From NCBI GenBank assembly GCA_938003855.1, contig CALKXD010000114.1, positions 1 through 61,503 of the forward strand: DNA of 61,503 nt, read 5' to 3'. Below the pieces are notes generated by a model. The model searched no databases and was not told where the DNA came from. It worked only from the letters and a program-made list of their open reading frames with translations. The translations under genes and the position numbers were made by a program. Numbering within the stretch: position 1 is the first letter of the stretch; each line of letters starts with the position of its first letter. Shown here piece after piece: positions 26,024-30,057 of the stretch. Source of the DNA: an uncultured Granulosicoccaceae bacterium (GTDB lineage Bacteria; Pseudomonadota; Gammaproteobacteria; Granulosicoccales; Granulosicoccaceae).

Positions 26024-26458
26024 ATGGCATTGCCACTGCTCGCACCACTGGCGCCGCTGTTACCTGTTTTTAAGGTTCTGGCGCTTGGCAGTGTCAAATT
26101 TATTGGTGTCGGAATCGGCGCTGCTGTCGCACCGGTACTAACCGCGAATTTTCTGGTAGGGTTATCTGCTGGCACACCGCTGAAGTACGCCAAGTTTCGT
26201 CATCGCAAAGGGCTGTTCACTGACGAGGAACTGGCGATGATTGAAAATGCCAACGAGTTGATCAACCACAGTCTGGTCGATGAAGACAAGCACCTGAGCC
26301 GCGGTGAAGCCCGGGAGTTTCTGAAGGAGGTGCTGATGGGCACCCTTGAGGGGATGAAAGTGAGCATTCTGTCCGTGCCCGGTCAGCTGGCTCGATTTTC
26401 AAAGCAGTTGCTTGCCATGTGCGTCAAGCCATTTACCTCCGGAGGACGCAACAAGTGA
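26024..26458 (+). CDS. Small protein of unknown function with a hydrophobic N-terminal half
   Basis: The 144-residue protein starts after a good RBS (GGGAGAAAATT before ATG). Residues about 1-55 are hydrophobic and Gly/Ala-rich with no charged residue apart from two Lys, suggesting one or two membrane-inserted helices. The rest is a charged helical domain (FTDEELAMIENANELIN, RGEAREFLKEVL). No family was recognised. It is followed 27 bases later by another unknown membrane protein and probably forms a unit with it. Confidence 0.65.
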   Translation: MALPLLAPLAPLLPVFKVLALGSVKFIGVGIGAAVAPVLTANFLVGLSAGTPLKYAKFRHRKGLFTDEELAMIENANELINHSLVDEDKHLSRGEAREFLKEVLMGTLEGMKVSILSVPGQLARFSKQLLAMCVKPFTSGGRNK

Positions 26459-26485
26459 TTTTGCAGCGCACACGGAGTTGGTGCA

Positions 26486-27280
26486 GTGAGTAAAACCGAC
26501 TCACAACCACCACGCCGGGTTTCGTTTTTAGGGCGTGCAGAAGCACGGGTGTTACAGCTGCTGCCCGGTTTTATTACACCGCTTCGATTTCGAATCCTTA
26601 TCGGGTATCTGGTCGTTATTGTTCTGGGTATCTATGGGTGGGAGCAAATTGCCTCTGCCTGGCGATATCTGGCCACATTGCTGGCGCCGGTCGCCGCTTT
26701 GCTGGGCGCGCTGCTGGCATTGAAGCTGAGCGTCGTTTTTGTATCGGTTGTGACGTTACTGAGTGCACTGTTGAAAGTCTTTTTCGGGTTTTTAATGGTG
26801 GTCTTGAAGCCCGGCATTCTCAAGGCGATTTTCATCCCTCAGCTGGTGTCTCTGGCCGGCTGGTTTCACCGCAAAAGCTCACGTCTGCAAACCTATGTGA
26901 AAAAAATCTACGATCGCATTAAAGGTTTTTCGGAGAAAGTTATTGGCTGGTGGAAAAACCAGGATGCTGCCGACAAGATACTGCTGTCGGGATTTCTTGT
27001 GCCGCTGCTGGTGATATTGCTAATTGTGTTTGTCGTGAAGCGTGCAATAACCCTATTTGCCGTTAAAAAAATTACCGAGCAAGTGGTTCAGAAGACGACG
27101 AAATTTGTTATAAAAAATTTCTACCGATTACCGGTAATCGGTGGACTGCCGGCGCTCGTTGCTGCCAGAACCCGAAAGCTGACAGTGCGCAACGATCGCG
27201 AAGACGTGGTTAATGATTTCAAAAGCCTTGGCAGCGAATTCTATAAACCGGAGTCACCGGTACCTCCTGAGCAGTCTTGA
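26486..27280 (+). CDS. Unknown inner-membrane protein
   Basis: The 264-residue protein has a GTG start. Hydrophobic segments lie at about residues 32-50, 60-82, 84-105 and 170-190, and the loops and the C-terminal tail are strongly basic (SRLQTYVKKIYDRIKGFSEKVIGWW, TRKLTVRND). The pattern suggests a multi-pass protein with cytosolic basic regions. No domain was recognised. It is probably co-transcribed with the preceding small protein and is convergent with the SMP-30-like gene. Confidence 0.7.
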   Translation: MSKTDSQPPRRVSFLGRAEARVLQLLPGFITPLRFRILIGYLVVIVLGIYGWEQIASAWRYLATLLAPVAALLGALLALKLSVVFVSVVTLLSALLKVFFGFLMVVLKPGILKAIFIPQLVSLAGWFHRKSSRLQTYVKKIYDRIKGFSEKVIGWWKNQDAADKILLSGFLVPLLVILLIVFVVKRAITLFAVKKITEQVVQKTTKFVIKNFYRLPVIGGLPALVAARTRKLTVRNDREDVVNDFKSLGSEFYKPESPVPPEQS

Positions 27281-28419: not shown

Positions 28420-29523
28420 CTAGAACCGGCCGTGTTCTCTTAGCTGATCTATATTCAAATCGGCACGCAGCCGGGCGGTTTTATCCGCCTTGAAGTCTTC
28501 CAGTGGTATGCCAGTGCCATCGGCAACTTTGACCACGGCATTGAATGACGCGACGGTAGCGCAGGTATCGACAAAAGCGGCATCGCTGAGTATATCTCGA
28601 AGCGCTGTGCGTGCCTGAGGCAGGTCGTCCGGGTCGATTAACAGTGCGTCAACAAAACGCAATATAGGTGCACTGTGCAGAACACCGTCGACTGTCGATT
28701 TGCCGTTAATCATGGCGTGAAGGTCAACGGTTTCACCGGTCATATTGCTACTCTCACGGAGCAGTGCGCTATGGCTGGTGGTTCAGTAGTAGCAACCGTT
28801 TATGGCTGACGCGCGACCAGCGATCAGTTCAATTTGAGCGTGACTGATCTCTCTGAACTCGTGCTCGAAATCCCGAATCTCATGATCCTTAAGATACAGT
28901 TCTACGTCCAGGTCAAAGAAGTTGATCACCTCCTGTGGTACCAGGCTCATCGCACGATGGATGTTGATACTGCCGTGCAGGGGAAAGGGGTCGGGGTCAT
29001 CTGCGCTGACGGTCTCCGGCGATAACGTTGCCACCCAGGCCAGATCCTTGATTGCGCCAGCGGGTCGGTGTCTGGTCGGGTTGCCGGTGGTTGGCGGTGG
29101 CAGTGCCCGTCTGGCGCGCCCGAGTGCCAGGTCCAGAGTATCCAGGCCGGTGACGGTGGCGACGATAGAGACAATCTCGACATACTGCTCCTCGGATAAT
29201 TGGTCGCCAGTGATGGATTTAACCCAGCGCCCGGTGCAACGTGATGCATCTGTTGTCAGCCGATGGATAGCTTCCAGCGCCTCTGTTGTCAGACCATCAG
29301 CTGCCGGGTGCTCGCCGGTCACTGTGTAGGGTGACAAAGACTCTTTGCGGCGCTTGCATAAATCGCAGTCAGCAGCGTTGCGTACCTGTTTTACAATGGC
29401 CAGCCTTTCCGCGCCATTCCACCAGGTGCCGGGCGATGCCAATCGATGCCATGCCAGCTCGATGGCGTTGACCAGTGCCGGTCTTGCCGGCAGCAGCTCT
29501 GAGTTAACTTCCAAACGGCTCAT
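28420..29523 (-). CDS. AhpD-like selenoprotein with an in-frame UGA (Sec) codon
   Basis: Read through the TGA at 28783-28785, this is one 367-residue protein. The first segment ends in SAINGCYY, and the frame continues after the TGA with TTSHSALLRES and a further 109 residues in the same frame. This recreates the AhpD active-site pattern NGCxxC-x3-H with selenocysteine (U247) in place of the second Cys: Cys244, U247, His251. An N-terminal CDLC pair (Cys53, Cys56) may be a second, diverged redox site. A SECIS-like hairpin follows the UGA (28741-28773). AhpD-fold proteins are thiol (here selenol) peroxidase or reductase components; alkylhydroperoxidase-related selenoproteins are a known family. 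It lies after the Rid gene in the LIV operon direction. Without Sec insertion, only a truncated first part and a 107-residue second part would be made. Confidence 0.85.
28741..28773 (-). promoter_or_regulatory. SECIS-like hairpin directing Sec insertion
   Basis: On the minus strand, 24 bases after the UGA, a CGTGA loop is closed by a 6-bp upper stem (CTGCTC/GAGTAG, one G-U pair). Below an internal loop there is a 4-bp lower stem (CATA/TATG). The UGA-to-loop distance and the G at the second loop position, followed by U, fit the bacterial SECIS consensus recognised by SelB. Confidence 0.65.
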
Positions 29524-29620: not shown

Positions 29621-30013
29621 TTAGTGCGAGCCGCGGATTGCCTCGACTTCGATCTCCACGTGCGCGCCGGGCACAGCTAGTGGCGAGCAAATAGTGGTGT
29701 TGGCAGGGTGGGTGAATCCGATCCTTTGCTTCAGTATTGCTGATACCGGCATGACATGCGCCGGATCCGGTACATAAACCCGGGTGCGGACGATATCACC
29801 CAGGCTGGAATCAACTTCTTTCAGGCATTGTTCAATGGCATCGATTGCCTGAGTTGCCTGCGCTTCGGGTCCGTTGGCGAGTACACCGGTTTTAAAATCG
29901 ATACCGACTGTGCCGGACACAAATACATGATCACCGACAACCACTGCGCGTGAGTAGCCAGCCAGCTCCTCGTACACGGACCCGGTAAAGACATGACTGC
30001 GTTTTAAGTTCAT
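29621..30013 (-). CDS. Rid-family protein (RidA-like, Asn at the catalytic Arg position)
   Basis: The 130-residue protein starts at 30013 (MNLKRSHV), chosen for family-like length. It has the Rid fold signatures GYSRAVVVGDHVFVSGT, DIVRTRVYV and VEIEVEAI. At the position equivalent to Arg105 of E. coli RidA it has Asn (HPANTTI), so it belongs to a Rid group not expected to hydrolyse 2-aminoacrylate in the classical way. It lies between the LIV binding protein and the AhpD-like selenoprotein. This suggests a role in the breakdown of whatever the transporter imports. Confidence 0.87.
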   Translation of the reverse strand: MNLKRSHVFTGSVYEELAGYSRAVVVGDHVFVSGTVGIDFKTGVLANGPEAQATQAIDAIEQCLKEVDSSLGDIVRTRVYVPDPAHVMPVSAILKQRIGFTHPANTTICSPLAVPGAHVEIEVEAIRGSH

Positions 30014-30030
30014 AGGCGTGTCCGTCGGAG

Positions 30031-30057
30031 ATGGAGTGTTCAGTGCGAACACTCCAT
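30031..30057 (-). terminator. Perfect 11-bp hairpin after the LIV binding-protein gene
   Basis: ATGGAGTGTTC and GAACACTCCAT pair perfectly around a five-base loop, 11 bases past the binding-protein stop and before the Rid gene. There is no T-run. It probably protects or attenuates the mRNA so that the binding protein is made in excess over downstream genes. Confidence 0.5.

Follow-up and report, generated by a model that had tools for sequence, protein, structure and literature searches.

The window analysed here, a stretch of 61,503 nucleotides from an uncultured Granulosicoccaceae bacterium, contains two minus-strand open reading frames that are called separately under translation table 11, at 28783-29523 (246 residues) and 28420-28743 (107 residues). 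As the preliminary description had stated, both lie in the same frame and are split only by a TGA at 28783-28785. When this TGA is read as selenocysteine (Sec), the frame becomes one gene of 367 codons (28420..29523, minus strand) that ends at a TAG stop and encodes a protein of 367 residues with the site NGCYYUTTSH, the Sec being residue 247. The joined protein matched the NCBIfam family NF041238, 'alkylhydroperoxidase-related (seleno)protein', with 416.4 bits against a cut-off of 175, covering profile positions 2-356 of 357. This match spans the TGA (residues 14-362, E 1.1e-124), and the CxxU motif with in-frame UGA of the family is present as CYYUT at codon 247. Pfam recognised no more than a short stretch of CMD at the Sec site, and the profile for AhpD proper (TIGR00777) scored 17 bits against a cut-off of 191.95; the protein is related to AhpD but is not AhpD itself.

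The family was already catalogued, in keeping with the earlier remark that AhpD-like and alkylhydroperoxidase-related selenoproteins occur in marine bacteria. Zhang et al. (2005) reported 'hypothetical protein 1', with a CxxU motif and a SECIS element, in the Sargasso Sea selenoproteome (PMC1088965), and a 2026 review equates that protein with NF041238 and enters it as an AhpD-related selenoprotein (PMC13188914). The window gene thus adds a member to a selenoprotein family that was already known. No biochemistry for the 'hypothetical protein 1' family was found in the literature.

We considered whether the two frames could be separate genes, or the remains of a decayed gene, in which case the TGA would be a normal stop codon or the product of a nonsense mutation. 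Standard gene calling does yield two ORFs, the second of which has an ATG of its own. However, the TGA is found in 92/92 members of the family across Pseudomonadota, Myxococcota and Binatota, and is never replaced by TAA or TAG, nor by TGC or TGT. The profile match is continuous, and comparison with the closest relative indicated purifying selection on both sides of the TGA (dN 0.14 for the N-terminal part and 0.16 for the C-terminal part, with dS at least 1.8). The match across the TGA, the selection on both halves and the universal TGA together argue that the two-ORF frame did not arise by chance, and we regard separate or decayed genes as very improbable. Conversion of a TGC or TGT into TGA by sequencing or assembly error was also weighed, as the source assembly is fragmented (312 contigs). 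The same TGA occurs in independent genomes whose proteins are 79, 76 and 65% identical, which rules out sequencing error; we regard an artefactual codon as extremely improbable.

These members were collected by scanning one genome per species over 84,980 species, which gave 80 loci, and by adding relatives from the host family; 27 weaker matches of the scan are not among the sequences read, and a few genomes may have entered the set twice, by way of two tools. Removal of identical proteins from the 92 members left 86 distinct ones. Most members belong to Alphaproteobacteria, Granulosicoccaceae and Myxococcota. Within the host family, protein and family searches found 11 full-length members in 8/48 genomes; every member contained a single in-frame TGA. 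A search of 398 genomes of the phylum for the family returned only the window's own gene, and no relatives were found in viral contigs, plasmids or PHROGs.

Immediately downstream of the TGA lies a hairpin with the features of a bacterial SECIS element (CUGCUC-CGUGA-GAGUAG; 28748..28764, minus strand). Its 5-nt loop (CGUGA, with a G at loop position 2), 6-bp stem and UGA-to-loop distance of 24 nt agree with the published consensus of a 3-9 nt loop with a G in the first two positions, a stem of 4-16 bp and a distance of 16-37 nt from the UGA (PMC13188914). Synonymous codon usage is constrained at the same place: codons +8, +9 and +11 after the UGA were the three most constrained of 103 conserved columns tested, being Leu CTC in 86/86, Arg CGT in 76/86 and Ser AGC or AGT in 84/84 sequences. 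Among 84 distinct sequences, each of the five inner stem pairs is intact in 99-100%; for the sixth, both C-G (49) and A-U (16) versions occur. The published free-energy criterion is -7.5 kcal/mol or lower (PMC13188914); the window's element gave values that vary with the length taken, of -15.2 kcal/mol (57 nt), -7.4 kcal/mol (45 nt) and -5.8 kcal/mol (bare hairpin). The corresponding stability z scores were -2.94 for the core hairpin, -2.87 for the 57-nt segment and -0.40 for the isolated 45-nt segment, the last not being unusually stable. Energy alone is less telling for this element.

The host encodes the complete machinery for Sec insertion; selA, selB, selC and selD, whose presence had been proposed as a check, were all found in the genome. 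The tRNA-Sec (selC) scored 75.8 bits and has the anticodon tca. Both selA (590 bits) and selB (296 bits, or 381 with a neighbouring stretch) are on contig C130, and selD (226 bits) forms the C-terminal part of a 729-residue oxidoreductase fusion. Across the host family, selA was detected in 7/8 genomes with the selenoprotein gene versus 10/40 without it (hypergeometric p ~0.002, a value that ignores relatedness). Genome G019, which is 84% complete, has the TGA gene (L011, L034) with neither selA nor tRNA-Sec over the cut-off; given this completeness, an assembly gap is the probable reason. In four alphaproteobacterial loci (L106, L107, L118, L134) the gene adjoins a selD fusion, followed by selB, and among other alphaproteobacterial relatives a selD fusion lies beside the gene in L133 and selB in L098.

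With the family match, the TGA in 92/92 members, the SECIS hairpin and the sel genes all in agreement, the proposal of a single 367-residue selenoprotein is upheld, and on this sequence evidence we are nearly certain that the window gene encodes a genuine selenoprotein of family NF041238, in which SelB and Sec-tRNA insert selenocysteine at UGA247 with the aid of the hairpin that follows it. The locus exemplifies how gene calling breaks at a Sec codon in an organism with complete Sec machinery, and the 92-member set with its conserved SECIS hairpin could help to train gene callers on Sec codons.

Two further features of these genomes were observed. In the host, a 729-residue frame (L029, contig C19) joins a pyridine nucleotide-disulfide oxidoreductase to selD, which forms the C-terminal part. 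On the 3' flank of L106, L107, L118 and L134 the selenoprotein gene is convergent with the selD fusion gene, after which comes selB, forming a small Sec cluster.

It had been suggested that homologues be aligned in order to see whether Cys replaces U247. Members of the family keep Sec: no Cys-containing NF041238 protein occurs among the 92 members, a set from which the 27 weaker matches are excluded. More distant AhpD-like proteins do have Cys, as in the NQCLYC site of L043. Since Cys homologues of 'hypothetical protein 1' have been reported (PMC1088965), Cys forms of the family probably exist. L043 was itself evaluated as a second selenoprotein and rejected, its site being CxxC and its TGA lying at the frame end.

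In a phylogenetic tree, the window protein and its host-family orthologues fell inside an otherwise alphaproteobacterial clade, and the second copy in the host family grouped with gammaproteobacterial and myxococcotal proteins. This placement of the two forms among different phyla or classes suggests separate acquisition or an old duplication. The nearest named relatives for the host family were Granulosicoccaceae and the Bugula-associated AB1 bacterium. The host family holds two distant selenoprotein forms, L005-L008 and L010-L016, that are ~36% identical to each other.

The Sec residue lies in a C-terminal AhpD-like (CMD) domain (28489..28971, minus strand; PF02627; PDB 6k40, 3c1l, 2prr). 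Its redox motif, C244-Y-Y-U247-T-T-S-H251 (CxxUxxxH; 28771..28794, minus strand), is the AhpD pattern with Sec at the second Cys, as had been read from the frame at the outset, and C244, Y246, Sec247 and H251 are invariant in alignment A1. Also invariant in A1 is Glu232 (28828..28830, minus strand), which precedes C244 by 12 residues and is a candidate for the proton-relay glutamate. In PDB 2PRR the relay consists of Glu74, Cys86, Tyr88, Cys89 and His93, with C86/C89 as the dyad (PMC4674687); Glu232, Cys244, Tyr246, Sec247 and His251 are spaced in the same way.

The N-terminal domain (residues 1-145; 29089..29523, minus strand) matched no Pfam family above cut-off. Its structural model (pLDDT 94.7), made from the domain alone, was compared with known structures, and AhpD-like structures made up the top 14 entries at Z 6.4-8.2, with the next entry at 4.1; unrelated helical folds can reach the same range as a Z of ~8. 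Profile comparison of the N- and C-terminal halves placed CDLC over CYYU, weakly (probability 19%, p 0.001). The full-length model (pLDDT 82, pTM 0.86) aligned best with human Sestrin2, the alignment taking in both domains (Z 17.2, rmsd 3.4, 237 residues, 8% identity); single-domain AhpD-like chains followed, on the C-terminal half, at Z 13.2 and below. The prediction for the N-terminal half is a further AhpD-like domain that has diverged, and the predicted models place two AhpD-like domains in one chain. This two-domain architecture, of which no earlier description was found, may be the new part of the finding, and it gives the 'hypothetical protein 1' family a testable predicted layout of two AhpD-like domains, one with CxxC and the other with CxxU.

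The N-terminal domain contains the pair C53-x2-C56 (CDLC; 29356..29367, minus strand). A CxxC is present here in 92/92 members, and C53 and C56 are invariant in alignments A1 and A2. The residues equivalent to the relay by spacing from C53 are L41, C53, L55, C56 and K60; with L41 and K60 where Glu and His would be, the N-terminal site has retained its two Cys residues and lacks the relay. The CDLC pair had been put forward as a resolving or second redox site. The invariance of the pair and the predicted fold of its domain lend support to the second-site part of that idea, and on these models it stays a candidate.

The gene neighbourhood was less informative. A Rid-family gene lies directly upstream on the same strand (29621..30052, minus strand), and the placement next to a Rid gene and a LIV-type transporter noted in the preliminary description is true of the window. 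However, the arrangement does not accompany the selenoprotein gene in its relatives: none of the 80 related loci contained a match to Rid, SGL or the LIV binding protein, and LivF, LivM and LivH gave only weak matches (23-35% identity) in 5 of the 80, usually kilobases away. Because the neighbourhood was not found in the relatives, it says little about function, and a functional link to the Rid, LIV transporter or SGL genes was rejected. Recurrent neighbours in other loci were genes of acyl-CoA metabolism, each in minorities of loci. Elsewhere in the window, at 26024-27280 on the plus strand, are two adjacent membrane-like proteins with no Pfam match above cut-off.

From the residues at the site, peroxide or disulfide reductase chemistry is a reasonable, somewhat favoured assignment for the window protein. 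In such a scheme, the C-terminal domain would act as a thiol/selenol oxidoreductase through its Cys244-Tyr-Tyr-Sec247...His251 site with Glu232. With the Glu/His relay activating it, the selenolate would attack either an oxidised partner or an organic hydroperoxide; its resolution, as a selenenyl sulfide, would fall to Cys244. The CxxC of the N-terminal domain would most likely pass electrons to the C-terminal site, resolve it, or form a structural disulfide.

A selenoprotein with another substrate is an unlikely but serious alternative; the reaction could be reductive dehalogenation as in Bmp8, or one linked to acyl-CoA, with the N-terminal CxxC purely structural. The Bmp8 debrominase has the same C-terminal domain fold (Z 12.4), genes for acyl-CoA synthetase, enoyl-CoA hydratase and SDR proteins are repeatedly found close to the gene in some relatives, and no neighbour gene is conserved throughout. 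Against this, the protein retains every one of the relay residues (Glu, Tyr and His) that mark AhpD-type peroxidases. Within the reductase assignment, we tentatively propose that the family is a fused AhpD dimer of bacteria with the shape of Sestrin, where the C53/C56 dithiol might supply electrons to the C244/Sec247 selenol or resolve it. Such a protein would be a peroxide or disulfide reductase with two centres and complete in itself. No description of such a dithiol-to-selenol fused dimer was found in the open-access literature.

The closest known system is NF041238 itself (AhpD_rel_CFYUT), which the window protein resembles in its 349-residue full-length match, CxxU motif, UGA position and length; the family name has CFYUT where the window protein has CYYUT, and otherwise there is no difference of kind. 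The host's selD fusion is similar to the Ndh-SelD fusions reported from marine metagenomes (PMC2398784). The peroxidase-related AhpD-like proteins of TIGR01926 (PDB 6k40, 3c1l, 2prr) share the C-terminal domain fold and the E-x11-C-x-Y-[C/U]-x3-H site, but are single-domain Cys proteins, whereas the window protein has Sec and an extra N-terminal domain. Fused AhpD-like proteins of bacteria include YciW and proteins of Corynebacterium and Comamonas (PMC11429811, which makes no mention of selenocysteine). Like the window protein, these have two AhpD-like domains in one chain; unlike it, they have widely spaced Cys residues or one Cys-less domain. The predicted overall fold is also similar to that of SESN2, compared at 8% identity, with two AhpD-like domains per chain. 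Sestrin, however, has one catalytic Cys in its N-terminal domain and none in its C-terminal domain (PMC4674687), whereas the window protein has CxxC in the former and CxxU in the latter.
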